28,056 nt of DNA. It comes from a virus. The notes under the pieces were generated by a model. The model worked only from the letters and a program-made list of their open reading frames with translations. It was not told where the DNA came from and searched no databases. Both the position numbers and the translations under genes were made by a program. Below, one piece after another: positions 1,394 to 20,551 of this stretch. The number at the start of each line of letters is the position of its first letter. The first letter of the stretch is position 1. The DNA is taken from IMG/VR virus record IMGVR_UViG_3300007960_000134, positions 1 through 28,056 of that record; one strand, given 5' to 3'.

Positions 1394-1424
1394 AATATTT
1401 TTAAAATTTAAAAAAGAGACTAAA

Positions 1425-1955
1425 ATGGCAATATATTTCAATCCAAACGATAAACTTTTTTACAATTCTGATTTTACCGCAAAATCCAAGATAACTGGTA
1501 GTTTTGTCGAAATAGCAACTAAACAAGAATATTACGATTTAATCGATCTTGTCGTTAGAGGTTATGAATTGGATGTAGACGAATTTGGAGGCATAACCTA
1601 TAGTTTTGTTGGTTTTGATCCTGAAATCACAATTCCTACATCAGATACCACAAGTGATTATATATCATTTTTTTACGCTAATATTAAAAATTTATTAGAA
1701 GGAACATCAATTTCCTACGGCTATGATTCAATAGACAATGCGATTTCCTACTACAATTCTGGAATAACATCATGGAGAAATGAAGCAATCGCTTTCAACA
1801 CATGGAGAGACAATACAGTTTCCCTGATGTACGACAACATATTCAGTTTCACCGCTGATGGAATCACTCTTCCAGATCTGCCTGGATTCACTGGTCAGAC
1901 TGGATATTTCGACGTCGGAATCACATCACCATCGAGACCAAACTTATTTAGCTAA
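1425..1955 (+). CDS. Probable tail-fibre assembly chaperone-like protein
   Basis: 176-residue protein directly after the fibre gene and with similar AT-rich composition. No catalytic motif is visible. The C-terminal half (from about residue 105) has an SYYNSG..SWRNEAIAFNTWRD pattern, resembling the 'A..Y......W..EA.AF..WRD' segment of small proteins encoded beside fibres in T4-like and other tailed phages, often called tail-fibre assembly chaperones (DUF4376-like). A weak AAGAGA precedes the ATG. Role in folding or attaching the fibre is inferred from position and this pattern only; it could also be a minor structural protein. Confidence 0.5.
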   Translation: MAIYFNPNDKLFYNSDFTAKSKITGSFVEIATKQEYYDLIDLVVRGYELDVDEFGGITYSFVGFDPEITIPTSDTTSDYISFFYANIKNLLEGTSISYGYDSIDNAISYYNSGITSWRNEAIAFNTWRDNTVSLMYDNIFSFTADGITLPDLPGFTGQTGYFDVGITSPSRPNLFS

Positions 1956-1965
1956 GGAACCATAA

Positions 1966-2655
1966 ATGGCAGGTTTAACATTTCCTAAAAATCCAACTGA
2001 CGGACAGACAGCTTCTTGGTCATTTGTAGATGCCAATGGAATCACGATAGTCAGGGTATGGACCTTTGACGAAGAAGCTTCTGCTTGGACTTCCACTCCG
2101 GCGAACCTATCCTTTGGATCTGGATCGGGTGGAATCGGTTTTCAAGGACCAACTGGACCAGCTGGATCGAATGGAGCTACTGGAGCTACTGGAGCCGTTG
2201 GTGCTACTGGAGCTACTGGAATTATAGGTTCCATATTCGTAAATGGAATCGAATACACCGATGTGGAATCACTTAAATTCTTCTCGGATCATTCAATAAC
2301 CCACTCCTCCGCAGACAATGTTCTCACCATCACATTTGGATCCGAGTTTGGTTCCATATCAGGAAATTCAAAGGAATCTGGGGTTGCTAGATGGGATTAT
2401 ACGGTGTTCAAAGCAGATTTCAATGGTTCTTGGAGTGTCAGTGCTCCTTCAATCACTGCGAGAAATCTCTTGGAAATTCAAAACACCGGATCGACTGCAT
2501 ATGGAATTTCTGTCGTGGGTGGTGATGGAACAACCATAGCTGGATTCACTGGTTTTGATGTTTTGCCAGTTCCCAACGGAACCATAGTGGAATTGTCATA
2601 TAAGAGCGGAAGTTATTTCTTCTCGGCACCAAATCCGATAGAGGGAGTTTGTTGA
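1966..2655 (+). CDS. Collagen-like virion fibre protein
   Basis: 229 residues. The N-terminus (LTFPKNPTDGQTASW...VWTFDEEASAW) is the short 'FP.NPTDGQ......W.(Y/F)D...W' module found at the start of many phage fibre/appendage proteins. Residues about 58-87 form ten Gly-X-Y triplets (GPT GPA GSN GAT GAT ...), expected to make a trimeric collagen-like stalk. The remaining C-terminal part is predicted beta-rich (many S/T/G/F/V) and probably forms the head of the fibre. AAGGA lies 5' of the ATG, 10 bases after the preceding stop. Likely a decorated virion appendage; the receptor or location on the particle cannot be read from the sequence. The following gene is a glycosyltransferase. Confidence 0.8.
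   Translation: MAGLTFPKNPTDGQTASWSFVDANGITIVRVWTFDEEASAWTSTPANLSFGSGSGGIGFQGPTGPAGSNGATGATGAVGATGATGIIGSIFVNGIEYTDVESLKFFSDHSITHSSADNVLTITFGSEFGSISGNSKESGVARWDYTVFKADFNGSWSVSAPSITARNLLEIQNTGSTAYGISVVGGDGTTIAGFTGFDVLPVPNGTIVELSYKSGSYFFSAPNPIEGVC
2137..2226 (+). repeat. Gly-X-Y triplet tract
   Basis: Ten in-frame Gly-X-Y codon triplets inside the collagen-like gene. Several are the 9-base GGAGCTACT unit, a substrate for slippage and length variation. Confidence 0.85.
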
Positions 2656-2703
2656 TTCCTTGGAAATGACTTTGAAAATGTTTTTGATTCTTGCTAGTTG
2701 AGG

Positions 2704-2711
2704 TATAAATA
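2704..2711 (+). promoter_or_regulatory. T4-type late promoter box
   Basis: Exact TATAAATA followed by CTT, 33 bases upstream of the glycosyltransferase ATG, in an 89-base gap with no gene. TATAAATA is the known gp55-dependent late box of T4; gp55 is encoded in this window. Confidence 0.85.
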
Positions 2712-2744
2712 CTTTCGAACCTTTGTTGAAATGGAGATTTTATA

Positions 2745-3995
2745 ATGACCGATGTCATGAATTCGTTGATTGAAAAACCCAAAGCCAAACCAACAATAAT
2801 CACACCAGAGATGTTGAGTTCTCCTCTTCCTTCTTCGTCGAAATCGAAGAAACCTTTGGGTGAAAAGAAGACCATCACTCTCTGCATGATCGTAAAGAAT
2901 GAATCCAAGGTCATTGAGAGATGCCTTGCATCTGTTCTTCCAGTCATCGACCATTGGGTGATTCTCGACACGGGTTCCACTGACGGAACGCAGGAAAAGA
3001 TCCGTGAATTCTTCAACAATGTTGGAATTCCAGGCGAACTGCACGAAGAACCTTGGGTTGACTTCGGGACCAATCGTTCAAGAGCTCTTGAACTCGCAAG
3101 GGACAAAGCAGACTATTCCTTGATGATCGATGCGGACGAAGTTCTCGTCTACGACTCCAATTTCGATCCAGATGCCTTCAAGAAGGGACTCGTCGCCGAT
3201 ATCTACAACATCTTCGCTTTCTACGGAAACACCAAGTACCATCGTCCTCAACTGACATCGAACTCCAAGGAGTTCTACTATCGTGGAGTCTTGCACGAAT
3301 ATGTTGATTGCAAGGAAAAGATAGAGAGCCGTGAATTTGCCAAAGGATTCACCAACACCCCCATTCAGGACGGAGCTCGTTCTTCAAATCCCAAGAAATA
3401 TGAAGACGACGCCAAGGTGTTCGAAGAAGCTTTAGCTTCAGGAAAAGTCGAGGAAAAGGACTTCAATCGTTACCACTTCTATCTCGCACAAAGTTATCGT
3501 GATTGTCAACAGTGGGAAAAGGCGATGGAGTGGTACAACAAGAGAGTGGAACTTGGTGGTTGGCAGGAAGAAGCATTCTACTCCAAGTATCAAGTCGGAA
3601 GAATCATGGAGATTCTGAACAAGCCATTGGATGAGATATTGAAGACCTATTTCGACTCATATCAGATGGCGCCATATCGCGCCGAACCACTTTGGGCTGC
3701 AGCAAGACTTTGCAGACTCTATTCCAGATTCGATCAGGGATACCGTTATGCCAAGATTGCAATATCCCTGAACTATCCAGAAGGAGCTCTCTTCGTTGGT
3801 CAAAGTGTCTACGATTGGGGAATGTGGGACGAATACGCGATATGCTCGTTCTGGACCGAAAGGTACAGGGAAGCTTACATTGCCACTGGAAAACTCCTAC
3901 AGGAAAACAAGTATCCACAGGACCAGAAGCAAAGAATAGAAGCAAATCACAAGTTCGCAATGGATGCTCTTGTGAAGAGGGGCGGGACAATCTGA
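2745..3995 (+). CDS. GT2-family glycosyltransferase with TPR-like C-terminus
   Basis: 416 residues. After a basic, Ser/Pro-rich N-terminal linker of about 40 residues comes a GT-A fold: ITLCMIVKNES (44-54), ILDTGSTDGT (73-82) for nucleotide binding, and a D129-A-D131 metal/nucleotide-sugar site (MIDADEVL). From about residue 230 to the end are helical repeats of TPR type (YHFYLAQSYRDCQQWEKAMEWY and similar). This GT2+TPR layout occurs in bacterial sugar transferases including some acting on peptides. GGAG (2733-2736) gives a well-spaced ribosome site, and a late box lies upstream. It sits between a collagen-like fibre gene and gp13, so glycosylation of virion fibres is a reasonable inference. 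Modification of host surface glycan is the alternative. Donor and acceptor are unknown. Confidence 0.8.
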   Translation: MTDVMNSLIEKPKAKPTIITPEMLSSPLPSSSKSKKPLGEKKTITLCMIVKNESKVIERCLASVLPVIDHWVILDTGSTDGTQEKIREFFNNVGIPGELHEEPWVDFGTNRSRALELARDKADYSLMIDADEVLVYDSNFDPDAFKKGLVADIYNIFAFYGNTKYHRPQLTSNSKEFYYRGVLHEYVDCKEKIESREFAKGFTNTPIQDGARSSNPKKYEDDAKVFEEALASGKVEEKDFNRYHFYLAQSYRDCQQWEKAMEWYNKRVELGGWQEEAFYSKYQVGRIMEILNKPLDEILKTYFDSYQMAPYRAEPLWAAARLCRLYSRFDQGYRYAKIAISLNYPEGALFVGQSVYDWGMWDEYAICSFWTERYREAYIATGKLLQENKYPQDQKQRIEANHKFAMDALVKRGGTI

Positions 3996-4000
3996 AGAGA

Positions 4001-4037
4001 AGAAATCTCCTAAATACTTCAAGTTTAGGAGATTTTT
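4001..4037 (+). promoter_or_regulatory. Hairpin covering gp13 ribosome site, with late-promoter-like loop
   Basis: AAATCTCCTAAA (4003-4014) and TTTAGGAGATTT (4024-4035) are perfect 12-base inverted repeats around a 9-base loop, extendable by a G-U and an A-U pair. The 3' arm contains AGGAG (4027-4031), the ribosome site for the gp13 ATG at 4041, so the hairpin would hide it. It starts 6 bases after the glycosyltransferase stop and ends in a T run, so it could also act as a terminator. CCTAAATACTT (4009-4019) resembles the late box TATAAATACT (6 of 8 in the core). Initiation there would start near 4022 and drop the 5' arm. Confidence 0.7.
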
Positions 4038-4040
4038 CAT

Positions 4041-4859
4041 ATGGCAAGAATCACCAGAAGGCAACAACTAATCGATTATTGTCTTCGAAGACTTGGCGCA
4101 CCCGTCATCGAAATAAATGTGGATGGAAGTCAGATCGAGGATAGACTCGACGATGCTCTTCAATTGTTTTCCGAATTCCATTTCGATGGAGTGGAAAGAG
4201 TCTTCTTGAAGTATCAGATGACTCAAGAGGACATAGACAATGGCTACATAATGATGAAGTCAAACAACGAAGGATTTGACGCTGCGGACAGGGAAATGAC
4301 TGCAACAGAATCGGGTGTCACCGAAAATGTCCCGATTGAAGATCTCATAACGAGTGTGATAAGAGTTTTTCAGTTGAGAAACACCTCGATAGGAATGTTC
4401 GACATTCGCTATCAATATGCTCTGAACGAACTCTATACATTCGGATCATTCGATCTTCAACACTACGCAATGATTCAGCAGTACCTGAGTCTTCTATCGG
4501 ACATTCTTACGCCAGAAAAAGAGATAGAATTCAGTCGAGTCACGAACAAGATAACATTCCCGATGACATTGACCAAGGAGTTTCTTCCTGGCGACTACAT
4601 GATATTGGAGTGTTTCCGTGTTCTCGACCCGAGAATATACCCAGAGATATACAACGACAGATTGTTGAAGAAATACACCACAGCACTGATAAAGAAGCAG
4701 TGGGGTGAAAATCTCTCCAAGTTCGAAGGTATGACCATGCCAGGTGGAGTCACCTTCAACGGAAAGAGAATGATAGATGAAGCGCAAGCAGAAATAGACA
4801 AGATAGAAGAGCAGATAATAAACGAGTTTGAGCTTCCTCCAAATTTCATGGTCGGTTGA
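4041..4859 (+). CDS. 13: Neck protein gp13
   Basis: 272 residues; T4 gp13 is about 309. The N-terminus (RRQQLIDYCLRRLGAPVIEINVD, then QIEDRLDDALQLFSEFHFDG) is the conserved gp13 neck signature, and the helical middle (LYTFGSFDLQHYAMIQQYL) and QWGENLSKF segment also fit. gp13 forms with gp14 the neck that closes the filled head and joins the tail. The gene heads the gp13-14-15 run, in T4 order, with gp14 starting 1 base after its stop. Its translation is probably controlled by the hairpin just upstream. Confidence 0.92.
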   Translation: MARITRRQQLIDYCLRRLGAPVIEINVDGSQIEDRLDDALQLFSEFHFDGVERVFLKYQMTQEDIDNGYIMMKSNNEGFDAADREMTATESGVTENVPIEDLITSVIRVFQLRNTSIGMFDIRYQYALNELYTFGSFDLQHYAMIQQYLSLLSDILTPEKEIEFSRVTNKITFPMTLTKEFLPGDYMILECFRVLDPRIYPEIYNDRLLKKYTTALIKKQWGENLSKFEGMTMPGGVTFNGKRMIDEAQAEIDKIEEQIINEFELPPNFMVG

Positions 4860-4860
4860 A

Positions 4861-5733
4861 ATGGCAACAAACAAATATTTCATCAACTACAATTCCAGAT
4901 ATGAGCAAAGTCTCCTTGAGGACATAGTTATCGAATCCATAAAAATTCACGGATTCGACATCTACTATCTCCCACGGGAATTGAATTCTCAACCGAACAT
5001 ATTTGGCGACGACCCGATTTCATCCTTCAATCAACACTTCATAGTGGAGATGTTCCTACAGACGGTGGATGGATTCGAGGGAGATGGGGATTACATAAGT
5101 AAGTTTGGATTGGAGATAAGGGATAGTGCCACCTTTGCGGTATCCAAGACCAGATTCCAGAATATAACTGGAAAATTCAGGCCTATGGAGGGTGACATTC
5201 TTTATTTCCCACTCACCAAGAAATTTTTCGAAATAAAGTTCGTCGAGCATGAAAATCCATTTTATCAACTGGGAAAAAACTATGTGTACACCCTCAAGGT
5301 AGAACTTTTCCAATACAGCGAAGAGGAGTTCAACACCAATTTGGAGGACATAGATTCTGCTATAGACACAAGAGAATACACAAAAACTCTAGTTTTAGGA
5401 GCTACTGGTGGATCTGGCAATTTTGCTCAAGGAAGTATCGTGTACTCGTTTGACAATGGAGCTACATTCGGATCACTCACTGCTGCGGATTCGAATGCAG
5501 AAGTGGTGAATTACCAAGGTTCAAACTTGACCATCAGAAATCCAGTGGGAGAGTGGAGAGTTTCCAATGCTTCAAGAAACACATATGTCGTGAGTTCAGA
5601 CAATCAATTCTATGCAAAGATAAATTCAAAGATAGACAAGGTGGATTCGTTGACCGCAAACGACAACGACATATTGGAATCGAAATCTTTGGAATTCTTG
5701 GATTTCAGTGAACAAAATCCTTTTGGAGAGTAA
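4861..5733 (+). CDS. 14: Neck protein gp14
   Basis: 290 residues from the ATG at 4861, chosen because it lies 1 base after the gp13 stop and gives the family N-terminus (NKYFINYNSRYEQSLLEDIVIESIKIHG...YYLPRE). An upstream in-frame TTG would overlap gp13 and is not favoured. The C-terminus (LEFLDFSEQNPFGE) is the conserved gp14 end. T4 gp14 is about 256 residues; the extra part is a Gly/Ser-rich beta domain at about 175-240 (GATGGSGNF...GSNLTIRNPVGEW), of a type also present in gp14 of marine T4-like phages. Partner of gp13 in the head-tail neck. Confidence 0.92.
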   Translation: MATNKYFINYNSRYEQSLLEDIVIESIKIHGFDIYYLPRELNSQPNIFGDDPISSFNQHFIVEMFLQTVDGFEGDGDYISKFGLEIRDSATFAVSKTRFQNITGKFRPMEGDILYFPLTKKFFEIKFVEHENPFYQLGKNYVYTLKVELFQYSEEEFNTNLEDIDSAIDTREYTKTLVLGATGGSGNFAQGSIVYSFDNGATFGSLTAADSNAEVVNYQGSNLTIRNPVGEWRVSNASRNTYVVSSDNQFYAKINSKIDKVDSLTANDNDILESKSLEFLDFSEQNPFGE

Positions 5734-5734
5734 A

Positions 5735-6562
5735 ATGTTCGAATTCTTCTATCATCAAATAACCAAGAAAGCAATAGTGGCATTCGGATCACTCTTCAAT
5801 GACATCTATATTGCTAGGTATGAAAACGACGGAACTGAAAAGGAAAGAATAAGAGTTCCATTGTCATACATGTCGAAGCAAAAATTCATAACTAGATTGA
5901 ACCAAAATCCAGATTTAGCCAACAATTTCTACAACAATCTCCCGAGAATGTCATTTGATTTCAATCTATTCAGTTATGACCCATCCAGAAAAAATGACAC
6001 TTTTCAAAAATCTCTATACAAGAGGGATTCGGATTTTTACTATAGGTATGGAAGAGTTCCATATATAATAAAGTTCAATCTGAACATATTTACAAAAAAC
6101 ACCGAGGACATTCTTCAGATATTGGAACAAATATTTCCTTGGTTTTCACCTGAATATTCGGTAAATGTGAAAATGGTGAATCCCACGGACATGAGTGTAG
6201 ATGTGCCTTTTATCATAAAGTCCGTCACATATGAAGACAATGTAGCAGATACTGGATTTGATGCTGACAGAAAAGTGGTTTCTTCGACAATAGAATTCGA
6301 TTGCAAGTTGTTTTATTATGGCCCAACTAGAAAGTTATCTTCCACACCAGAAGGAAGCACTGCATTTGGAGAAAATGTAAGTATTCCCGAAGGAATGGTT
6401 GGGAAGGTAATTACCTCTGTGTTCACTCCTGGAGTAGAAGAGCCATTCATGACCGCTGTGACTGGCTTGACTGGAACCGTTGATGCTTCCAATTTTGATT
6501 TGAGTCTTTCAGGTGCAAGTGCTCAATATTACATGATTTACACCAAACATCCCTTTTTATGA
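5735..6562 (+). CDS. 15: Tail sheath stabiliser / terminator gp15
   Basis: 275 residues, against 272 in T4. The ATG at 5735 lies 1 base after the gp14 stop with GGAG at about 5725, and gives the family start MFEFFYHQITKKAIVAFGSLFNDIYI; an in-frame start at 5708 would overlap gp14. Other family segments are LPRMSFDFNLFSYDPSRK and the RVPYIIKFNLNIFTKN strand. gp15 caps the assembled tail tube and sheath and binds the neck. Third gene of the neck run; followed by a late promoter. Confidence 0.92.
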   Translation: MFEFFYHQITKKAIVAFGSLFNDIYIARYENDGTEKERIRVPLSYMSKQKFITRLNQNPDLANNFYNNLPRMSFDFNLFSYDPSRKNDTFQKSLYKRDSDFYYRYGRVPYIIKFNLNIFTKNTEDILQILEQIFPWFSPEYSVNVKMVNPTDMSVDVPFIIKSVTYEDNVADTGFDADRKVVSSTIEFDCKLFYYGPTRKLSSTPEGSTAFGENVSIPEGMVGKVITSVFTPGVEEPFMTAVTGLTGTVDASNFDLSLSGASAQYYMIYTKHPFL

Positions 6563-6638: not shown

Positions 6639-7112
6639 ATGAAAGATAAAGTGGAAAAAAACATATCAGATGCTCTGGGCATAGAATATATTCCTATTGT
6701 TGAAGAAAAGGATTTAGCTAGCTCAGAAGAATCATCCACCAAAAACAATTCAGCTTCCGATCAAGCTCAAGCTGATGCTGATTATGCTCTGGTAAGAAAA
6801 AACTTAAAAAACATAATAAATCAATCTGAAGCAGCTATTGAAGGCATATTGGATGTAGCTAGCGAAAGCGAGAGCCCACGCGCATATGAAGTGGTGGCCC
6901 AATTGATACATAGCAGTTTGGATGCAAATGGCAAGTTGATGGAACTGCACAAGAAAATGAAGGATTTGAAGAAGGAGGAAGGTGGAAGTGGACCGAAGTC
7001 CATAACCAACAACTCCATCTATGTCGGGAGCACAGCGGAACTTCAGAAGTTCCTGAGTGAACGAAAGAAAGCAAAGTTGCTGGAGAAAAAGGATGCCGAT
7101 AAAGAACAATGA
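6639..7112 (+). CDS. 16: Terminase small subunit gp16
   Basis: 157 residues; T4 gp16 is 164. It has an acidic N-terminus (ALGIEYIPIVEE), a long helical pair (YALVRKNLKNIINQSEAAIEGILDVA; QLIHSSLDANGKLMELHKKMKDL) as in the coiled-coil core of gp16 rings, and a lysine-rich tail containing IYVGSTAELQKFL. gp16 binds DNA and regulates the large terminase during packaging. No good Shine-Dalgarno sequence precedes the ATG (AAGG is about 20 bases away). Its 3' end overlaps gp17 by 20 bases, which suggests coupling of translation. Confidence 0.9.
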   Translation: MKDKVEKNISDALGIEYIPIVEEKDLASSEESSTKNNSASDQAQADADYALVRKNLKNIINQSEAAIEGILDVASESESPRAYEVVAQLIHSSLDANGKLMELHKKMKDLKKEEGGSGPKSITNNSIYVGSTAELQKFLSERKKAKLLEKKDADKEQ

Positions 7113-8796
7113 CCACTACCTCGGCAATCCACTCATCAAGGCAGCAAACACTCCTGTAGAATTCACTCCTGAGCAGGTCGAGGAGTACATAAAATGCTCG
7201 AACGACCCCATCCACTTCATAGAGAATTACATAAAAATAGTTCAAGTTGACAGGGGATTGATTCCTTTCGAGATGTATCCTTTTCAGGAAAACATAGTGA
7301 GGACGATTCACGACAATCGTTTCACAATATGCAAACTTCCTCGTCAGAGTGGCAAATCGACCACCATGATATCGTATCTTCTGCACCATGTCCTTTTCAA
7401 TCAGGACAAGAAGGTTGCGATTTTGGCGAACAAGTTGACCACTGCAAGGGAGTTGCTTCAAAGATTGAAGAAATCCTACGAGAATCTTCCGAAATGGTTG
7501 CAGCAGGGAATAATCGAGTGGAACAAGTTGTCCATACAACTGGAAAATGGTTCCAAGGTCATCGCTTCATCCACTTCCTCGTCGGCGGTTCGTGGTGACA
7601 CTTACAGCATAATTCTACTTGACGAATTTGCCTTCGTTCCCAACAACATTGCCGAAGACTTCTTCAACTCCGTTTATCCCACCATTTCTTCGGGTGAAAC
7701 CACCAAAGTGGTAATCGTGAGCACACCCAAGGGAATGAACATGTTCTACAAGTTGTGGAAGAACGCGGAAAACGACAAGAATTCCTATGTTCCATTGGAA
7801 GTCCATTGGAATGAGATTCCAGGAAGAGACCAAAAGTTCAAGGAAGAAACCATTCGCAACACTTCCGAGAGGCAGTGGATGCAGGAGTTCGAATGTCAGT
7901 TTTTGGGTTCCGAGGATACTCTCATATCATCCGCAAAACTTGCTACCATGCCATTCGAGGAGCCTGTTCGTTCTGCGGTGGATGGATTGGACATATTCGA
8001 GGAACCGAAGAAGGACAATGTCTACATCATGTGTGTTGACACATGCAGAGCTCAAGGAGCTGACTACCACGCTTTCACTGTCATGGATGTGACCCAAATG
8101 CCATATAAAGTGGTAGCGAAGTACAGAAACAACACTCTTCCCGTTTTGATGTACCCCACGGTGATAGAAAAGATGGGTAAATATTACAACGATGCTCACA
8201 TTCTTTTGGAGATAAACGATGTCGGTTCGGAAGTTGCGGACATTCTCTACCAAGAATTGGAATATGAGAATGTCCTTTTGGTCTCCAATCGCGGCAAGAA
8301 AGGTCAGAAGGTGGACGGTGGTTTTGGTGAAAGTGGAAAGGTGCAATTTGGTGTTCGCACCAGTTATCAAATAAAGAAGTTGGGGTGTTCGATCCTCAAG
8401 GAGATGGTCGAGCAGGACAAGTTGGTGGTCACGGATTTGGATATTATTTCAGAGTTCAGTACCTTCACTTCAAAAGGAATTTCCTACGAAGCATCCGAGG
8501 GGTATCACGACGATTTGGTCGATACTCTGATTCTTTTTTCATGGTTGACGACACAGACATATTTTCGTGAAATCATAGACATAGACACGAGAAAGAAACT
8601 CTACGAGAAGAGATTGCAGGATTTGGAAGCTTCCCTCTCCCCATTTGGTTTCATAGAGGACGGGATCGTGGATTTCGAGGAAGAGAAGCAAAGGGATGCT
8701 TCTTTCCTTTCTAGGGAAAATCCGAGAAGAAAAAATCTAGAACTACCCCCAAGTGATGTGAACATGGACGATGAAAGTAGTTTCTTTTGGTCTTGA
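7093..8796 (+). CDS. 17: Terminase large subunit gp17
   Basis: 567 residues; T4 gp17 is 610. The start at 7093 is chosen because GGAG lies 7 bases upstream; an in-frame ATG at 7057 would overlap gp16 further. The N-terminal packaging ATPase shows Walker A PRQSGKST (about 83-90) and Walker B IILLDEFAF (about 173-181). The C-terminal RNase-H-like nuclease shows the first Asp in CVDTCRAQGADYHAF (about 316), an acidic site in EINDVGSE (about 374) and the HDDLVDTL site (about 472-479), so both headful-packaging activities look intact. Works with gp16 and docks on portal gp20. Confidence 0.96.
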   Translation: MPIKNNDHYLGNPLIKAANTPVEFTPEQVEEYIKCSNDPIHFIENYIKIVQVDRGLIPFEMYPFQENIVRTIHDNRFTICKLPRQSGKSTTMISYLLHHVLFNQDKKVAILANKLTTARELLQRLKKSYENLPKWLQQGIIEWNKLSIQLENGSKVIASSTSSSAVRGDTYSIILLDEFAFVPNNIAEDFFNSVYPTISSGETTKVVIVSTPKGMNMFYKLWKNAENDKNSYVPLEVHWNEIPGRDQKFKEETIRNTSERQWMQEFECQFLGSEDTLISSAKLATMPFEEPVRSAVDGLDIFEEPKKDNVYIMCVDTCRAQGADYHAFTVMDVTQMPYKVVAKYRNNTLPVLMYPTVIEKMGKYYNDAHILLEINDVGSEVADILYQELEYENVLLVSNRGKKGQKVDGGFGESGKVQFGVRTSYQIKKLGCSILKEMVEQDKLVVTDLDIISEFSTFTSKGISYEASEGYHDDLVDTLILFSWLTTQTYFREIIDIDTRKKLYEKRLQDLEASLSPFGFIEDGIVDFEEEKQRDASFLSRENPRRKNLELPPSDVNMDDESSFFWS

Positions 8797-8826: not shown

Positions 8827-8834
8827 AATAAATA
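8827..8834 (+). promoter_or_regulatory. Probable late promoter box (variant)
   Basis: AATAAATA, one base off the late box, in the gp17-gp18 gap, 44 bases upstream of the first sheath gene. Highly expressed sheath genes would be expected to have a late promoter here. Confidence 0.55.
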
Positions 8835-8878
8835 AGTAATAGTAGAAAGCTCCGTTATTAGACTAAGGAGATAGAAAT

Positions 8879-10678
8879 ATGGCATTTCAAGTCAGTCCGG
8901 GTGTAAATGTAAGTGAAATTGATCTCACAACGATAGTTCCAGCTGTTGCTACCTCCATAGCCGGATTAGCTGGTTATTTCGAATGGGGACCAGCAAACAC
9001 TGTGGTCTTGATAGACACTCCAAAAACATTCAGAAACATATTTGGTGATGTGAAGGAATGGAATTACGAAGAATATTTCACCGTATTGAATTTCTTGGGG
9101 TATTCGAGGGGGATAAAGATCGTCAGGACAATGGGTTCTGTAGGTTCCGTCGCCAACGCAAACAGTGCAGGAAAAACCGCAGGTGACCCGGAATCTTATG
9201 CACCAAACGACAATGTTGACATAACGACATTTGGTGGTGGTTTCTATTCCAGATACGCAGGTGAGAAGGGAAACAGTCTTGCGGTTTCGATTGGTGGCAA
9301 TGGAGTTTCAGCTGGGTCGAATTGGACAGTCGGAACACAAGGCACTAGCACCTATTCGGACATATGGTCTGCATTCGGGAGAAGTCCAGATTCTTCAGAC
9401 AACTTGATTTCAATAGCAGGAGCCACTACTTTCGACATGGTTCATATCGCTGTCTTGGATCAAGATGGTCTTTTCACAGGAACCAAGAACACCATTCTTG
9501 AGAAGTTTGAAAATGTTTCTCTTCATCCTAGAGCTAGGAGAAATGATGGAACTTCGAACTACTTCAAGAACATCATAAACACGACATCGCAATACATCAA
9601 GTGTGGTGGTGCTGTTGACAATTACGATCTCAACGACACCGCTTTCTATCCAGCTGCTATTTTTGGTGGTCCTGGCCTTGGGGTTTCTGGAATCAGTGAT
9701 GCAGAAACGGACTATGTGTTCAGTTATGGCGGAACAGCACATGTCACCATTTCACTTTCGGGTGGAACGGGGGATCAAACTGGATCACTTTTTGATATTC
9801 CCGAGCAAGGTTATGAGGTTTTGGCTGATGCGGAAAAGGAAGATGTGAATCTTCTTCTTGGTGGTGGAATAAACATCGCTGAAGATGTGCAAAATTTGGT
9901 TCAGATCGCCGAAACAAGAAAAGACTGCGTGGCATTTCTTTCTTGTGACATCGGCAAGGTCGGTGCGAGTGTCAGTGCAAGCTCAACTGAAAGTGCGAAA
10001 GCAGACCGTTGCATAGCTTTCAAGAACAATGTTGGATCGAGTTCTTATGTCTTCATCGATTCGGGATACAAGAAGCAATTCGATCCATACAATCAAGTCT
10101 TCAGATGGGTGCCTCTCAATGGTGACACTGCTGGATTGGTTGCTAGAACCGAATTCACCAATGACGCATGGTGGTCACCTGCGGGATACAATAGGGGAAT
10201 AATGAGGAATGCGGAAGCTCTTGCTTTCAATCCCTCGAAAATATACAGGGATAGATTGTACCCGAAGGGAATCAATCCAGTCATATTCCAAAAAGACACT
10301 GGAATTCTTCTCTTGGGTGACAAGACAGGTTTGCAGAAACCAAGTGCGTTTGACAGAATCAATGTTCGCAGATTGTTCATAGTTCTGGAGAAGGCAATCG
10401 CAACCGCATCCAAGTATTCCTTGTTTGAGTTCAACGATTCGTTCACTAGATCGAGATTCGTCTCTCTCGTCACTCCGTTCCTTTCGGATGTCAAGGCTAG
10501 AAGAGGCATGATCGATTTCAAGGTAGTTTGTGACGAGTCCAACAACACACCAGAAAGAATTGATAGAAACGAGTTTTGGGCAGACATCTACATCAAGCCA
10601 AATCGTTCGATCAACTACATTCAGTTGAACTTTATTGCTACTAGAACTGGTGCAAGTTTTAGTGAGGTTGGTGCTTAA
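8879..10678 (+). CDS. 18: Tail sheath protein gp18, copy A
   Basis: 599 residues; T4 gp18 is 659. It has the family N-terminus (FQVSPGVNVSEIDLTTIVPAVATSIAGLAGYFEWGPAN) and the conserved C-terminal contractile domain (SSYVFIDSGYKKQFDPYNQVFRW..., WWSPAGYNRG, LAFNPSKIYRDRLYPKGINPV, AFDRINVRRLFIVLEKAI, and the FWADIYIKPNRSINYIQLNF end). The middle, about residues 95-350, is more variable and corresponds to outward domains. AAGGAG is ideally spaced. A second complete sheath gene follows 30 bases later. The product forms the contractile outer tube around gp19. Confidence 0.96.
   Translation: MAFQVSPGVNVSEIDLTTIVPAVATSIAGLAGYFEWGPANTVVLIDTPKTFRNIFGDVKEWNYEEYFTVLNFLGYSRGIKIVRTMGSVGSVANANSAGKTAGDPESYAPNDNVDITTFGGGFYSRYAGEKGNSLAVSIGGNGVSAGSNWTVGTQGTSTYSDIWSAFGRSPDSSDNLISIAGATTFDMVHIAVLDQDGLFTGTKNTILEKFENVSLHPRARRNDGTSNYFKNIINTTSQYIKCGGAVDNYDLNDTAFYPAAIFGGPGLGVSGISDAETDYVFSYGGTAHVTISLSGGTGDQTGSLFDIPEQGYEVLADAEKEDVNLLLGGGINIAEDVQNLVQIAETRKDCVAFLSCDIGKVGASVSASSTESAKADRCIAFKNNVGSSSYVFIDSGYKKQFDPYNQVFRWVPLNGDTAGLVARTEFTNDAWWSPAGYNRGIMRNAEALAFNPSKIYRDRLYPKGINPVIFQKDTGILLLGDKTGLQKPSAFDRINVRRLFIVLEKAIATASKYSLFEFNDSFTRSRFVSLVTPFLSDVKARRGMIDFKVVCDESNNTPERIDRNEFWADIYIKPNRSINYIQLNFIATRTGASFSEVGA
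10352..10410 (+). repeat. 59-bp segment identical to sheath copy B
   Basis: By direct comparison this segment is base-for-base identical to 12218-12276 in the second sheath gene, including third codon positions, while flanking codons differ. It encodes DRINVRRLFIVLEKAIATAS. Confidence 0.9.
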
Positions 10679-10708
10679 TTACAGATATAGAATCAAGGAG
10701 ATAGAAAT

Positions 10709-12544
10709 ATGGCATTTCAAGTCAGTCCAGGCGTAAATGTAACGGAAATCGACCTCACAACCATAGTTCCAGCTGTTGCTACTTCTTTGGGTGGTATTGC
10801 TGGAAACTACGAGTGGGGACCAGCAAAGCAGGTGATATTGATCGATTCTCCGAAGTCATATAGGGCAATTTTCGGCAATCCAAAAAATTGGAACTATGAG
10901 CAATGGTTTTCGGGGTTCAATTATCTCAGTTACACGAACTCGTTGCAAGTAGTGAGAGTTGTAGGAACAGATGCAGAGAATGCTGCTGGTTGTTTCACGG
11001 GGGATGGTCAAACAGCTCCATCTGCACAACTATTTGAAAATGAGAGTTTGTTCAACAACGACTACAATGGAATTTTTGCTCGTTATCCAGGGCAAAAAGG
11101 AAATTCCCTCAAGGTCGCTATTTTCCCAGGACCAGGTGGAACAGCTATAAATGAAGGGACTACTGGTTATGGAGCTGGATTCACAGCGTGGACGGAATCG
11201 GGAGTGGAATATTACGCGAACTTCGGATTTGGTTCAGAAGGAGCTCCTGACCACACGACCAACATTCAGACACTAGCAGCAAGTTTGACCACGAACGACC
11301 AAATTCATGTTTTGGTCATCGACGAGGATGGATTGTTCACTGGAGCTAGAAACACGATACTGGAAAGATTCAACAATCTTTCTGTGTATCCAGAAGCTAA
11401 ATTGGACAATGGGGAAAGTACATTCTACAAGAGACATATCAACGACACATCACAATACATTTATGTCGGTGGAGAAGACATTCCTCAAGACGCAGCTTCC
11501 GACTTCTATGTTCAAACTGGTCTCCAATTCACCGACACTGGAACCTTTGGATATATTGCTGACTGGGGTGTCACAGGTCCAAATGGAACAAGAGTTCGTT
11601 TGGGTGGAGGAGTTTCTTTCCCACTCAATGGCGGCGCTGGTCAAACCAGTTCGAACTTGGTTTCTCCAACTGTTCCAAGTGACGATCCATATGGTTACAA
11701 CCTTTTCGAGGACACGGAATCGTACGATGTCAATCTCTTGATTTCTGGTGGAATCGTGGATTCCACAAGTGTCGGAGCATTGAAAGCTATAGTCGAGTAT
11801 AGAAAAGACTGTGTTGCTTTCTTTTCACCGAGAAACAGAAGTGACATAGAAGAAGAACAAGCAAAACTCGAAAGAGCTTTGGACTTCAAGGCAACTTTGG
11901 GAACAAGTTCCTACTGCGTAATCGATTCTGGATACAAATATCAATACGATCCATACAACGATCTTTATCGTTGGATTCCACTGAACGCTGATATTGCTGG
12001 TCTTTGTGCGAGAACGGATAGCACGAACGATCCTTGGTGGTCTCCTGCTGGATTCAATAGAGGACAAATCAGAAATGTCATAAAGTTGGCGTTCAATCCA
12101 TCCAAGGCATTCAGGGATCAACTTTATCCCGATGGAATCAACCCTGTCATAACAACTCCAGGAGAGGGAACGATTCTCTTTGGTGACAGGACAGCATTGT
12201 CCAAACCAAGTGCGTTCGACAGAATCAATGTTCGCAGATTGTTCATAGTTCTGGAGAAGGCAATCGCAACCGCATCGAAATTCTCTTTGTTCGAATTCAA
12301 CGATTCTTTCACCAGATCCCAATTTGTTTCCTTGGTGACACCATATCTCAAGGATGTCAAGGCGAGAAGAGGAATCATAGATTTCAAGGTGGTTTGTGAC
12401 GAGTCCAACAACACTGCCGAAAGAATCGACAGAAACGAGTTTTGGGCAGACATCTACATCAAACCAAATCGTTCTATCAACTTCATCCAATTGAATTTTG
12501 TTGCGACCAGATCAGATAGCAACTTCACAGAGTTGGGCGGATAA
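10709..12544 (+). CDS. 18: Tail sheath protein gp18, copy B (tandem paralogue)
   Basis: 611 residues, full length, with the same start (FQVSPGVNVTEIDLTTIVPAVATS) and the same conserved C-terminal blocks (YDPYNDLYRWIPLNADIAGL, WWSPAGFNRG, AFDRINVRRLF, FWADIYIKPNRS) as copy A. The two leaders share AAGGAGATAGAAATATGG, so the duplication included the ribosome site. The central region (about residues 95-400) has diverged strongly, with an added Gly/Thr-rich segment (GPNGTRVRLGGGVSFPLNGG). No frameshift is visible, so both copies are probably expressed. It may make a mixed sheath or an alternative one; the sequence does not decide. Confidence 0.95.
   Translation: MAFQVSPGVNVTEIDLTTIVPAVATSLGGIAGNYEWGPAKQVILIDSPKSYRAIFGNPKNWNYEQWFSGFNYLSYTNSLQVVRVVGTDAENAAGCFTGDGQTAPSAQLFENESLFNNDYNGIFARYPGQKGNSLKVAIFPGPGGTAINEGTTGYGAGFTAWTESGVEYYANFGFGSEGAPDHTTNIQTLAASLTTNDQIHVLVIDEDGLFTGARNTILERFNNLSVYPEAKLDNGESTFYKRHINDTSQYIYVGGEDIPQDAASDFYVQTGLQFTDTGTFGYIADWGVTGPNGTRVRLGGGVSFPLNGGAGQTSSNLVSPTVPSDDPYGYNLFEDTESYDVNLLISGGIVDSTSVGALKAIVEYRKDCVAFFSPRNRSDIEEEQAKLERALDFKATLGTSSYCVIDSGYKYQYDPYNDLYRWIPLNADIAGLCARTDSTNDPWWSPAGFNRGQIRNVIKLAFNPSKAFRDQLYPDGINPVITTPGEGTILFGDRTALSKPSAFDRINVRRLFIVLEKAIATASKFSLFEFNDSFTRSQFVSLVTPYLKDVKARRGIIDFKVVCDESNNTAERIDRNEFWADIYIKPNRSINFIQLNFVATRSDSNFTELGG
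12218..12276 (+). repeat. 59-bp segment identical to sheath copy A
   Basis: Partner of 10352-10410. The exact match in two otherwise diverged genes suggests gene conversion or strong constraint. Confidence 0.9.
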
Positions 12545-12548
12545 AATA

Positions 12549-12556
12549 TATAAATA
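12549..12556 (+). promoter_or_regulatory. T4-type late promoter box
   Basis: Exact TATAAATA followed by C, 4 bases after the second sheath stop and 27 bases upstream of the gp19 ATG. AAGGAG follows for gp19. Confidence 0.85.
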
Positions 12557-12583: not shown

Positions 12584-13252
12584 ATGTCATTACCAGATAT
12601 TCAAGGATTCAAGAATTCGTTACTTAGAGGTGGAGCCAGAGCTACTCACTTCTTGGTTCAGGGATTGAATATAGGAAGCATACAAGAGTTTTCTTATCTT
12701 TGTAGAGCTGCCTCACTCCCTGCAGCCACAGTGGCCGTGGTTGAAGTCCCAACTCCAGGTGGCAGAAAAATAAAACTTTCTGGAGACAGACAATTTGAAA
12801 ATTGGCAAATAACTGTTTACAATGACACGAACATGATAATGAGATCTCGTTTTGAGGCTTGGCAGACTGCATGTGCCAACTGGGACAGTCCTGCAGCTTT
12901 CGACAATCTCGATTCCTATGCTTCCAATCAATGGAATGTGACTCAATTGGACAGAGCAGGGAGAGCTATGAGGGCATATCAGTTCTTCAATGCTTGGCCA
13001 ACTGCTCTCGGTGCAATCGAGTTGTCTTTCGACGAAGCCACTACCATAGAGCAATTCACTGTTGATTTGGCCTATTCGCATTATGTTCCTGTTGCTGGTG
13101 GTGGAAGTGTTGGTCCCGCTGGAGTTCTTGGTGCTGATTGGGCAGTGAATCTCGGATTCTCTGGTTCCTTCAACCTTAACTTCGAGAGTGGTGGTGGTAT
13201 TCTTTCCAGTGTGAATGCTCTAGCTTCCATTGGTGGTTCTTTTAGTCTATGA
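12584..13252 (+). CDS. 19: Tail tube protein gp19
   Basis: 222 residues; T4 gp19 is 163. Tube-family features: RATHFLVQGLNIGSIQEFSYLCRAASLPA, then VPTPGGRKIKLSGDRQFENWQITVYNDTNMIMRSRFEAW, and AYQFFNAWPTALGAIELSF...IEQFTVDLAYSHY. The extra C-terminal part after the last family strand is Gly/Ser-rich (about residues 170-222), possibly exposed in the lumen or a loop. It polymerises into the inner tail tube inside the sheath. AAGGAG and an exact late box precede it. Confidence 0.93.
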   Translation: MSLPDIQGFKNSLLRGGARATHFLVQGLNIGSIQEFSYLCRAASLPAATVAVVEVPTPGGRKIKLSGDRQFENWQITVYNDTNMIMRSRFEAWQTACANWDSPAAFDNLDSYASNQWNVTQLDRAGRAMRAYQFFNAWPTALGAIELSFDEATTIEQFTVDLAYSHYVPVAGGGSVGPAGVLGADWAVNLGFSGSFNLNFESGGGILSSVNALASIGGSFSL

Positions 13253-13276: not shown

Positions 13277-14800
13277 ATGCCATTTGAATTTTTTGGTCTG
13301 AAATTCGGGAAAACAAAGCAGGAGAAGGAAGAATCGAAGTTGACATCCTTCGTTCCTCCTGAAACTGACGATGGTGCAGTAATAGTCGAATCGGGTGGAT
13401 TTTACGGACAATATGTGGATTTGGACGGATCCACCCGGAGCGACTACGAACTGATCCAAAAGTATCGCGACATGGCTCTTCATCCCGAATGTGAAAGTGC
13501 AGTGGAAGAAATAGTCAATGAGTCGATCATTGCTAGTGACAACACAGATGTGGTCAAGATAAACCTAGACAATGTGAATTTGGACGCTGAGATAAAGTCT
13601 TTGATAACAAAAGAGTTCAGTACAATTTTGGAGTTGATGAGTTTCAACACAAAAGGTTACGAATTGTTTCGTCGTTGGTACATAGATAGCAGACTCTATT
13701 TTCATGTCATAGTGAATCCAAACAACATCAAAAAGGGAATAGTGGAACTTAGGTTCATAGATCCCCTGAATCTTCAGAAGATTCGTGAATTCAAGAAGGA
13801 AACACGACCAGATGGAACCAAGTTGATTGCGGATTTTGAGGAATTTTATATTTTTCACAAATATGTGTTTCCAGGTGGTCAAAAGAATTTTGCTACAGCT
13901 CCAGATGTTCAAGGTTTGAAGATTTCTCCCGATGCTATTTCAGCGGTCAATTCTGGTCTTTATGATACGAGAAACAAGAGAATAGTGGGATATCTCCACA
14001 AAGCAATCAAATCGTTGAACCAGTTGAGGATGATGGAAGATGCAGTGGTGATATATAGAATCTCACGCGCTCCTGAAAGAAGAATTTTCTATGTGGATGT
14101 TGGTAACTTGCCGAAACAGAAAGCCGAGCAGTATCTTCGTGATTTGATGAACAAACACAGAAACAAATTGGTCTATGATGCGAACACTGGTGAGATCAGA
14201 GACAACAAGAGAATGATGACCATGTTGGAGGACTATTGGATGCCTCGCCGAGAAGGTGGTAAAGGCACTCAAATAGAAACTCTTCCTGGTGGTCAGAATC
14301 TCTCGGAGATGGAGGATGTGAAGTATTTTCAGAAGAAACTATACAGGTCTCTCAATGTTCCCGTTTCTAGGCTTGAGAGTGAGAATGGGTTTACTTTAGG
14401 GAGATCCACGGAAATAACAAGAGATGAAATCAAGTTCACGAAATTCGTGAATAGAATGAGGACCAAGTTCAGTGAAATCTTCTACGACCTTTTGGGGAAA
14501 CAATTGATACTGAGGGAAATAATCACCAAGGATGAATGGGAGAAGATTCGTTACGATGTTCATTTCGATTTCAAGAGAGATACTTATTTCGCCGAACTCA
14601 AAGAAGCTGAACTTCGCAAAGATAAAGTGGATGAGTTGATGAACATGACTCAATATGTAGGAAAGTTTTTCTCGTACAATTGGATTCGCAAGAATGTTCT
14701 CAAGTTGACCGATGAAGAGATTGTAAGGATGGAAAAGGAAATAGAGGAAGAAAGGAAGAAGGGTTTGATACCACAAGACCAATCGGAATTCGGTATATGA
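13277..14800 (+). CDS. 20: Portal protein gp20
   Basis: 507 residues; T4 gp20 is 524. Recognised by GGFYGQYVDLDGS near the start, the RDMALHPECESAVEEIVNESI block, RFIDPLNLQKIREF, the EDAVVIYRISRAPERRIFYVDVGNLPK...YL block and ENGFTLGRSTEITRDEIKFTKFV. The dodecameric portal sits at one capsid vertex, starts prohead assembly and is the DNA channel for gp17. AGGAG precedes the ATG. Its TGA overlaps the next ATG (ATGA). Confidence 0.95.
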   Translation: MPFEFFGLKFGKTKQEKEESKLTSFVPPETDDGAVIVESGGFYGQYVDLDGSTRSDYELIQKYRDMALHPECESAVEEIVNESIIASDNTDVVKINLDNVNLDAEIKSLITKEFSTILELMSFNTKGYELFRRWYIDSRLYFHVIVNPNNIKKGIVELRFIDPLNLQKIREFKKETRPDGTKLIADFEEFYIFHKYVFPGGQKNFATAPDVQGLKISPDAISAVNSGLYDTRNKRIVGYLHKAIKSLNQLRMMEDAVVIYRISRAPERRIFYVDVGNLPKQKAEQYLRDLMNKHRNKLVYDANTGEIRDNKRMMTMLEDYWMPRREGGKGTQIETLPGGQNLSEMEDVKYFQKKLYRSLNVPVSRLESENGFTLGRSTEITRDEIKFTKFVNRMRTKFSEIFYDLLGKQLILREIITKDEWEKIRYDVHFDFKRDTYFAELKEAELRKDKVDELMNMTQYVGKFFSYNWIRKNVLKLTDEEIVRMEKEIEEERKKGLIPQDQSEFGI

Positions 14801-15318
14801 AAGACAAGACAGTAAAAATAGTAGAAAATTCCTTTGAAAAGGACTTTGAGTCGTTCAAGAAAAATTTATTTTCCTTGATTTCAGAAAAAATTCAAGAAAC
14901 TTTGGAATCTAGGAAAAACTCTGTCTCTTCCTCACTATTGGGGGAAGAAGGTGATGCAGCTGCGGCTGAAGCTGAAAAACAAGCTTTGTTCGTTGACCCG
15001 AACATGGCCAAGGAATTTTTCATAAAGGATTTGGAGTACAAAGAAAATACCATTACTCTGAAGACCTTGGGTACTGGAATCGGCAAACCTGTGGTTTCTT
15101 ACATCAACGGTGAACAATTTGAGGTGTTTGCGGACAAAGAAGTCGCAGAAAAAGAAAGTAAACAAGCAATAGATAGAATGATTGAAAAGGGTATAGACAG
15201 CCTTAAGGACTTGAGAAAAAGTTCAGCACAATTGAAAAAAGAGAAAGAGGCAGAACAAGCAAAATCTCAAGAGGAACCAAAACCAGAACCAGAAGAAAAA
15301 GAGAAAGAATCTAAATAA
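14797..15318 (+). CDS. Unidentified protein in prohead-core gene position
   Basis: 173 residues, ATGA overlap with portal gp20, so translation is probably coupled. There is no motif I can name. It shows a helical N-terminus (FEKDFESFKKNLFSLISEKIQETLES), a small middle region (KEFFIKDLEYKENTITLKTLG..IGKPVVSYINGEQFEVFAD) and a highly charged Lys/Glu/Pro tail. The position between gp20 and gp21 is where T4 encodes the small prohead-core proteins gp67 and gp68, so a role in head assembly is inferred. Confidence 0.6.
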   Translation: MKDKTVKIVENSFEKDFESFKKNLFSLISEKIQETLESRKNSVSSSLLGEEGDAAAAEAEKQALFVDPNMAKEFFIKDLEYKENTITLKTLGTGIGKPVVSYINGEQFEVFADKEVAEKESKQAIDRMIEKGIDSLKDLRKSSAQLKKEKEAEQAKSQEEPKPEPEEKEKESK

Positions 15319-15324
15319 TAAATA
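15317..15324 (+). promoter_or_regulatory. Probable late promoter box (variant)
   Basis: AATAAATA, one base off the late box, overlapping the stop of the preceding gene and 31 bases upstream of the ATG at 15356. Weaker than the exact boxes. Confidence 0.45.
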
Positions 15325-15355
15325 GATTATAGACTTTTAAAATAAGGATATAAAA

Positions 15356-15709
15356 ATGGCAGAAGAAACAGAATATCAGAAGTTTTTCAGAAAAGCATTG
15401 GAAAAGCATGGAGTCAGTAGTCCAGCTGAATTCAAATCGGACGAGGAAAAGAAGAAGTTTTTCAACTACATATCAAAAACTTGGAAGGGTTCGGATGAAC
15501 TCATCAAGGACATCAAAGATAACCCAGCTGTAAAAAAGGCAATAGACAAGGAATTGGGTTTGGAGGAAGTTGGAAAGAGACATGAAGAAATGATGACAGA
15601 AGCAAATGCATTCCTCAAAGCTCGTGCCGTCGCTATGTGGGAAGGAAAGAAGAAGTTTGAATTCGATGGAAAGACCTATCCTGTTATCAAGGTAACAGAA
15701 GAAAACTGA
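15356..15709 (+). CDS. Conserved small phage protein, unknown function
   Basis: 117 residues. The N-terminus (EYQKFFRKALEKHGVSSPAEFKSDEEKKKFFNYISKTWKG) and C-terminus (ARAVAMWEGKKKFEFDGKTYPV) resemble a small family often seen near structural genes of marine T4-like phages; I know no function for it. AAGGA precedes the ATG. Its TGA overlaps the next ATG (TGATG), so the two are likely translated together. Placement in the gp67/gp68 interval suggests a prohead or minor virion component. Confidence 0.6.
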   Translation: MAEETEYQKFFRKALEKHGVSSPAEFKSDEEKKKFFNYISKTWKGSDELIKDIKDNPAVKKAIDKELGLEEVGKRHEEMMTEANAFLKARAVAMWEGKKKFEFDGKTYPVIKVTEEN

Positions 15710-16098
15710 TGAAATCCTTTTCCAACTATCTTTCGGAAGATCATGATGGAGAAATGGCAATTTCTCAACTTCGATCAATTGTTGACAATGCGACGAAGTT
15801 GCTTGAGATGGTGAGTTCCGATACCAATCTTGAGCCTTGGGTTCAGAGTAAATTGACGAAGTCTCATGATTACATTTCAATGGTCCACGATTATATGGCA
15901 CATTCACCGGAAAGTGCTTTTGATGAGGGTTCACTTCTTCCCTCCGAAAGAAACGACCAGCAAAATTACAGAAAAACTTCATCGGGTTCGAAAGTCGCGA
16001 TGAAGTATTGGAAAAACAGTCAAAAACCAGATTACAAACCAGATGCAGCTGCATCCGTTCGAGCAAAAAGAGTACACAGAGGAGGGTATCATGCCTGA
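15709..16098 (+). CDS. Conserved small phage protein, unknown function
   Basis: 129 residues. The core (DGEMAISQLRSIVDNATKLLEMVSSDTNLEPWVQSKLTKSHDYISMVHDYMAH) is a helical module I recognise from many T4-like marine phages, alone or inside virion proteins, without known activity. The C-terminal half is polar and basic (KVAMKYWKNSQKP...RAKRVHRGGYH). It overlaps both neighbours by a few bases, as expected in a coupled head-assembly operon. Confidence 0.6.
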   Translation: MKSFSNYLSEDHDGEMAISQLRSIVDNATKLLEMVSSDTNLEPWVQSKLTKSHDYISMVHDYMAHSPESAFDEGSLLPSERNDQQNYRKTSSGSKVAMKYWKNSQKPDYKPDAAASVRAKRVHRGGYHA

Positions 16099-16348
16099 TG
16101 AATTAACTGCGAAAATGATAGATGCTTCCGTTGAAAAGAATGCTGTTCAATTCAAGGAACTCATGGATGCTTCCATGAATGAAAGAATTGCTTCTCAACT
16201 TCGAGACACCAAGATGGAAATTTCGAACAAGATTTTTGAAAATTCCAAGGAGTTTCAAATGAAGTTGAATTCAAAGAAAAAGAAGGAAGCTGCTATGGAC
16301 AAGAATGATCTTGCCATGAAAGGCTCCTCCATCAATAAGGTCCAATAA
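16091..16348 (+). CDS. Prohead core protein, gp67-like
   Basis: 85 residues from the ATG at 16091, preceded by GGAGG at 16081; a start at 16043 would overlap the previous gene more and lacks this site. The sequence ELTAKMIDASVEKNAVQFKELMDASMNERIASQLRDTKMEIS resembles the short helical gp67-type core proteins of T4-like phages (alternating acidic and basic helix, 'K(D/N)AV.FK' then '..R I...L...K'). T4 gp67 is 80 residues and lines the prohead core with gp22. Assignment by length, position and this weak pattern. Confidence 0.55.
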   Translation: MPDELTAKMIDASVEKNAVQFKELMDASMNERIASQLRDTKMEISNKIFENSKEFQMKLNSKKKKEAAMDKNDLAMKGSSINKVQ

Positions 16349-16837
16349 ATGAAGAACTTCAGAGAAATAAGAGAAAAAACAAGCACTTCATCATTGGAAG
16401 AGAGAAAAAATCTTTCATATGAAGTAAAGGACATGAAGTCCGCTGAATTCATAAAAAACGAACTCTCCTCTTTGGTCAAGGCAAATTTTGACATAAAGAA
16501 AAAAGGTTCGCGATACATGATCTCAGCTTCTCCGAAAACTTCTCAGGATGAAAAGATCATAAAATCCTTCATGGATGATGCAAAGATAGAAATGATCAAA
16601 GATGAATTTGTCAGGGGGTTGATGAAATCTAAAATGACAAATGAAGACATTTCCTTGGAGAATTTTCAAGGAGAAATCGTAGAGGTGAAGTCCGATATTG
16701 CAACAAAAATAATAGACATACACGACACATTGAATAAGGACAACCAAGAACTATTCATGGAAATGATCATATATTCACAAGAAACATTGAATCAAATGAT
16801 AAGTTTTTGTGAGACTTATTCGGGGGACAATAAGTAA
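16349..16837 (+). CDS. Unidentified protein in prohead-core cluster
   Basis: 162 residues starting right after the previous stop. Highly charged with predicted helices (AEFIKNELSSLVKANFDIKKKG; LFMEMIIYSQETLNQMISFCETY) and little else. Length is near that of T4 gp68 (141) and so is the position, but I cannot match sequence, so equivalence with gp68 is only a guess. Its TAA overlaps the next ATG (TAATG). Confidence 0.5.
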   Translation: MKNFREIREKTSTSSLEERKNLSYEVKDMKSAEFIKNELSSLVKANFDIKKKGSRYMISASPKTSQDEKIIKSFMDDAKIEMIKDEFVRGLMKSKMTNEDISLENFQGEIVEVKSDIATKIIDIHDTLNKDNQELFMEMIIYSQETLNQMISFCETYSGDNK

Positions 16838-17184
16838 TGGCATACACCACGATATCATCGACACACAATAGACTATTGGCTATTTTTTCAGGAACCACAA
16901 GTTTGACTTCTGGAACCCCTGCTTTTGGTGGATATACAGCTGATCCCTCGACTTTCAAGTTCACGAAGGGCTTCGTCGATTCTGGAAAAACAGCTTCGAT
17001 AAGTTTTGGTGCTGCTGGATTGACGATGGTGCTTCCTTCTGGAGTCAACGATTTGGATTCACATGGAATGGCTGTTGGATCAACTCTTTGCGATGGAATC
17101 ACGGTTGTTGTGTCTTCTGGTGGTTATGCTATATTGGAGTTCAAGGGAATTCCGACGAACATAGACGAAAACTACTTCAAGTAA
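16837..17184 (+). CDS. Unidentified small beta-rich protein
   Basis: 115 residues, TAATG-coupled to the gene before. Ser/Thr/Gly-rich with short strands (TSLTSGTPAFGGYTADPSTFKFTKGF; SISFGAAGLTMVLPSG; GITVVVSSGGYAILEFKGI), so probably a small beta-sandwich. It could be a head decoration or other minor virion protein; no family recognised. It lies just upstream of the protease gp21. Confidence 0.5.
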   Translation: MAYTTISSTHNRLLAIFSGTTSLTSGTPAFGGYTADPSTFKFTKGFVDSGKTASISFGAAGLTMVLPSGVNDLDSHGMAVGSTLCDGITVVVSSGGYAILEFKGIPTNIDENYFK

Positions 17185-20503: not shown

Positions 20504-20541
20504 GGGGGAGAGGGTGGAAACACTCTCTCCTCTCTTTTTTT
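20504..20541 (+). terminator. Rho-independent terminator after gp23
   Basis: GGAGAGGGTG (20507-20516), a GAAA loop (20517-20520) and CACTCTCTCC (20521-20530) form a 10-bp stem with one G-U pair, extendable at the base, followed by TCTCTTTTTTT. This is a classic intrinsic terminator limiting read-through from capsid to the next gene. Confidence 0.88.
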
Positions 20542-20551
20542 GGAGAATAGA

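Follow-up and report, generated by a model that had tools for sequence, protein, structure and literature searches.

Two complete genes of the T4 gp18 tail-sheath family were found in tandem on the plus strand of the window, the 28,056-nt stretch of viral DNA analysed here (IMG/VR record IMGVR_UViG_3300007960_000134). Copy A (gp18A) occupies positions 8879–10678 and encodes 599 aa, and copy B (gp18B) occupies positions 10709–12544 and encodes 611 aa. Both scored above the curated Pfam cut-offs for Phage_sheath_1 (PF04984) and Phage_sheath_1C (PF17482) and matched PHROG 23 'tail sheath' over the full length (E 1.6e-111 for copy A and 7.5e-129 for copy B). Structure models of moderate quality (mean pLDDT 72–73, with the lowest confidence at the termini and in some portions of domain IV) superposed on T4 gp18M (3foa) with Z 27.1 and an rmsd of 3.4 Å over 343 aligned residues for copy A, and with Z 28.5 and 3.0 Å over 342 residues for copy B. 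By their domains, their fold and their place between gp17 and gp19, both copies are intact gp18-type sheath genes. The two proteins showed 53% identity across 628 columns. Each gene begins with an identical AAGGAGATAGAAAT-ATG and an N-terminus, MAFQVSPGVNV, common to both; the AAGGAG ribosome sites lie at 8865–8870 for copy A and at 10695–10700 for copy B, on the plus strand, the latter within a 30-nt A-B junction that is alike in all tandem contigs. The sequence-only reading had described two complete tandem sheath genes that retain ribosome site and N-terminus, as opposed to the single sheath gene of T4, and it was correct in each of these points.

The pair is flanked upstream by the gene for the terminase large subunit gp17 (7057–8796, PF03237) and downstream by a single tail tube gene, gp19 (12584–13252, PF06841, PHROG 45), and the portal gene gp20 (13277–14800, PF07230, E 1.8e-172); the tail-sheath stabiliser gene gp15 (5708–6562, PF16724, E 2.5e-57), also on the plus strand like the others, is single as well. 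The genes are arranged in the order gp13, gp14, gp15, gp16, gp17, copies A and B, gp19, gp20, small unknown genes, gp21, gp22 and gp23, followed by gp3, uvsY, uvsW, gp55 and gp47, and the structural order matches that of S-PM2. On the basis of this conserved structural gene order the window phage is classified as T4-like (Kyanoviridae-like). Its major capsid protein was closest, among cultured relatives, to those of Pelagibacter phage Mosig (62%), Methylophilales phage Melnitz (61%) and HTVC008M (61%). A further PHROG 45 'tail tube' match at 20540–21100 was considered as a second tube gene and rejected, its position and best relatives identifying it as gp3, the tube terminator; automatic annotation would miscall a second tube gene here through the PHROG label. 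Directly upstream of the neck genes, region 1966–3995 carries a collagen-like or tail-fibre-like ORF and a family 2 glycosyltransferase gene, and the interval between gp20 and gp21 (14797–17184) contains six small ORFs, almost none of them with a family match.

A late-promoter-like motif, AATAAATA, is located 52 nt upstream of copy A (8827–8834, plus strand), and each of the eight tandem contigs checked carried NATAAATA at −52 to −57 relative to copy A. The A-B junction of these eight contigs contained no late-promoter-like motif, and no terminator-like site was found on the plus strand between A and B. A separate late-promoter-like motif, TATAAATA, precedes gp19 (12549–12556, plus strand); exact copies of it occur four times in the window, all on the plus strand and 33–56 nt ahead of a gene, and the glycosyltransferase gene has its own at 2704. 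NATAAATA resembles the T4-type late promoter motif, and the window contains a gene for the late sigma factor gp55. These motifs are presumably promoters, and A and B are probably co-transcribed.

The A-B tandem was not restricted to the window. Eighteen other IMG/VR contigs from many metagenomes, among them contigs of 57 and 66 kb, carried both copies, complete or partial, in unchanged order and with the same junction layout; the 57-kb and 66-kb records contained no third sheath copy. Where both gp17 and gp19 flank the sheath, one sheath ORF was found at 125 loci and two or more at 10, nine of which belong to the A-B clade, the tenth (L101) being a frameshifted single gene. Loss of a copy was not seen in any member of the A-B clade. 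Besides L101, L074 and Aeromonas phage phiAS4 (L057) were considered as further tandems and judged to be split or frameshifted single genes; the phiAS4 sheath is annotated in three pieces (L057:2492–4475), by appearance the result of frameshifts rather than of duplication. Several other contigs showed irregular arrangements. In L016 (3–1711) copy A is broken into two overlapping ORFs by a frameshift or an assembly error, and L080 and L102 each carry three gp19-matching ORFs near the sheath, possibly split or repeated tube genes. On a different phage contig, L155, an ordinary sheath gene (1225–3123) is directly followed by a very divergent sheath-like ORF (3138–5195) that is recognised by its N-terminal part alone and is cut by the contig end; it is perhaps an independent two-sheath lineage.

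In a tree of 50 rows, A (12 rows; support 100/100) and B (18 rows; 99/97) formed separate clades that joined each other with 100/100 support, and every single sheath fell outside. A larger tree with more relatives placed the single-sheath contigs L109 and L111, which have the ordinary gp17-18-gp19 order, nearest to the pair (100/99). When domain IV was omitted, the first copy of L108, the deepest tandem contig, joined A (99/99), and its second copy was placed near B without resolution. These A and B clades, together with the placement of L108, indicate one tandem duplication that took place after the split from L109/L111 and preceded at least six lineages. A phylogeny of both copies among relatives, as proposed in the sequence-only reading, thus traces them to a single old duplication.

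Divergence between the copies was found to be unevenly distributed over the domains of the sheath protein. With both copies mapped onto T4 gp18 and domain limits as given for that protein (PMC3004832), A-B identity was 96% in the N-terminal arm of domain IV, 51% in domain III, 39% in domain II and 79% in the C-terminal part of domain IV, which bears out the earlier description of similar ends around a differing centre. The position of T4 residue 509 in the structure alignment (A 452, B 464) gave a domain edge in agreement with this mapping. Domain I, the outermost domain of T4 gp18 (91 residues), is nearly missing from both copies: its columns contain 15 residues in one copy and 24 in the other (27% identity over 15 aligned residues). 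The outward divergence therefore falls mostly in domain II. The near absence of domain I was rejected as a mark of the A-B pair, since most single-sheath T4-like relatives show it too. The diverged outer-face segments correspond to residues 89–298 of copy A (9143–9772, plus strand; 31–40% identity to B in the window) and residues 89–311 of copy B (10973–11641, plus strand), and across several lineages the paralogue-specific centres are retained at 37–44% A-B identity. Copy A varies from 586 to 607 aa between lineages and copy B from 600 to about 780 aa. Large inserts were seen in the outer part of B in L013 (3294–5357, 688 aa) and L108 (1498–3831, 778 aa), compared to about 600 aa usually, and the inserts themselves had no Pfam match. 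Given these inserts in B, with A staying at 586–607 aa, B may be a decorated subunit.

Both copies are under strong purifying selection. Between orthologues, dN/dS was 0.03–0.06 for both copies when the window was compared with L004 and L006, and 0.12–0.13 for both copies in other pairs, with dS close to saturation in several of them. The highest values were obtained for residues 89–300 (0.05–0.23 between orthologues), still far below 1, so that at these distances nothing indicates positive selection. The suggestion that an exposed surface is under selection from outside thus stands only as far as the outer region is the fastest-changing part of the protein.

A tract inside domain IV behaved differently from the rest of the gene. 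It comprises residues 481–575 of copy A (10319–10603, plus strand), supported by region trees that group by genome, an approximately unbiased (AU) test and permutation, and residues 493–587 of copy B (12185–12469, plus strand), with the same basis and an exact identity of 59 nt. For residues 481–540, A and B from the same contig shared 95% amino acid identity, as compared to 88% for A-A and B-B pairs across lineages, and identical codons at shared residues reached 71% for A-B within a genome as compared to 57% (A-A) and 55% (B-B) between lineages. In permutations of the A/B pairing the true pairing ranked first of 120 for amino acids, codons and nucleotides, and likewise for residues 481–599. 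The DNA tree of residues 481–572 paired A with B within each of L010, L012 and L013 and grouped the L007/L008 set and the window set by lineage; forcing A to be a clade in this region cost 112 log-likelihood units and was rejected (AU p = 1.6e-6). Trees of residues 1–88, 89–300, 301–400 and 401–480, by comparison, each gave A as a single clade (100/99–100), and for residues 546–599 alone A as a clade was not rejected (AU p 0.13). In the C-terminal tract the two copies of L108 grouped together with weak support (86/61).

Lineage-specific codons common to A and B were about 2.5 times denser in residues 481–575 (0.189 per site) than elsewhere (about 0.07), and none of the 95 positions of the tract were fixed differently between A and B, as opposed to nine positions elsewhere, K463/D475 and Y580/F592 in domain IV among them. 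The longest exact A-B run lay within the tract both in the window (59 nt, A 10352–10410 and B 12218–12276) and in L013 (107 nt). In the group formed by the window, L004 and L006, A and B are separate branches even in the C-terminal tract, and therefore the last exchange is older than the split of these three and conversion has not been recent there. The N-terminal arm was also considered as homogenised, owing to its 96% identity; its true pairs ranked only 25–120 of 120 in within-genome versus cross-genome comparisons, so that plain conservation accounts for it. The process behind these patterns is gene conversion or an equivalent recombination, which is concentrated in the interlocking domain and has been repeated, though not recently in every lineage. 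Genes of recombination proteins (UvsY, UvsW and gp47) are present in the window.

In T4, domain IV holds neighbouring sheath subunits connected in both states and during contraction (PMC3004832). Taken together, these comparisons make it fairly probable that gp18 was duplicated in tandem long ago and that the resulting paralogues have both been retained, have specialised and form a single two-component contractile sheath, presumably around one gp19 tube. On balance we lean towards a heteromeric T4-type sheath in which recurrent conversion limited to the interlocking domain keeps the subunits compatible and the exposed domains are kept different, the same inside and different outside. In such a sheath A and B would be parts of one lattice, sit on the same tube and move as a unit on contraction, for which reason domain IV of the two would have to stay interchangeable and conversion there would be tolerated or favoured; in the outer domains, where A and B would have different roles, conversion would be eliminated. 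Of the three ideas put forward in the sequence-only reading, the mixed sheath is accordingly the best supported, by the co-transcription layout, the single tube gene and the homogenisation of domain IV within genomes. In it A and B may alternate, mix randomly or occupy separate zones. Against a two-component sheath, gene conversion can arise without co-assembly wherever genes are very similar and recombination is active.

The main rival is a zoned version of the two-component sheath: one paralogue would make up a distinct ring or segment next to the baseplate or neck, with the bulk formed by its partner. Several sheath proteins occur in the PVC and AFP injection systems, as opposed to one in AlgoCIS (PMC8894135), the sheath chains of AFP and PVC are matched by the profile and by the structure models, and the fixed differences K463/D475 and Y580/F592 in domain IV would suit such zoning. 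However, fixed differences between the clades number only nine in all and are absent from the homogenised positions, and the common ribosome site and shared promoter-like motif do not suggest strongly unequal amounts; zoning is therefore regarded as possible but rather unlikely. Alternative use of A or B by condition, giving two virion types with different outer surfaces, would agree with the marked difference of the outer domains and with the more variable length of B. This earlier proposal is nevertheless disfavoured and considered improbable, as a single late-promoter-like motif serves both genes, with none at the junction in any lineage and no terminator-like site between them, the ribosome sites are equally strong, and no switch was found. 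That the second copy simply supplies more sheath protein is very improbable: many sheath copies are needed and the layout is tandem, but a duplicate kept for dosage should either remain similar or disappear, whereas the distinct centres have been retained and no clade member has lost a copy. That one copy is a chimera of the assembly had been named in the sequence-only reading as a way in which it could be wrong. A chimera joining the single sheath genes of two phages, which the metagenomic origin of the contig might suggest, is excluded for practical purposes, as is chance, by the same pair, order and junction layout in 18 independent contigs.

The usual teaching on contractile tails is that of a one-protein sheath; the present clade would represent a clade-wide two-gene sheath of T4-like phages with a recombination-homogenised interface. 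It offers a test made by nature, in which the surfaces that a sheath needs to have in common in order to contract can be told from those that may vary, and a case of gene conversion with domain-level limits in a virus.

T4, its relatives HTVC008M, Melnitz, Mosig and S-PM2 in Kyanoviridae, and also DLP6 and Cr30 share with the window the gp18 fold, the gp17-gp19 place and the domain plan, but each has one sheath gene at that place. Among the matches listed for phage records, near relatives have one sheath place, and the records with two places are two Erwinia jumbo phages. More than one sheath gene per contractile machine is also found in PVC/AFP and in Bacteroidales BIS, which has two sheath proteins in some clusters (PMC7394362); these systems, however, are non-phage and their sheaths are distantly related to those of the window. 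The closest parallel is the Pseudomonas jumbo phage PaBG (Lupandier group), for which PMC7412058, citing Kurochkina et al. (2018), gives a two-component sheath with both proteins found in the virion. As in the window phage, two sheath paralogues go back to a duplication within a single lineage of phages. In PaBG the two proteins are 38% identical and their genes are non-adjacent (products 76 and 213), whereas those of the window are adjacent, T4-like and have a homogenised domain IV common to both. Since the A-B pair arose within T4-like phages, its duplication is presumably independent of that of PaBG. PaBG and the injection systems were the sole matches in the open literature searched, where no duplicated sheath in T4-like phages and no report of domain-limited conversion between sheath genes were found. 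Two-component sheaths are thus already known, and it is the T4-like tandem pair with domain-limited conversion that appears to be new, within the open literature searched.
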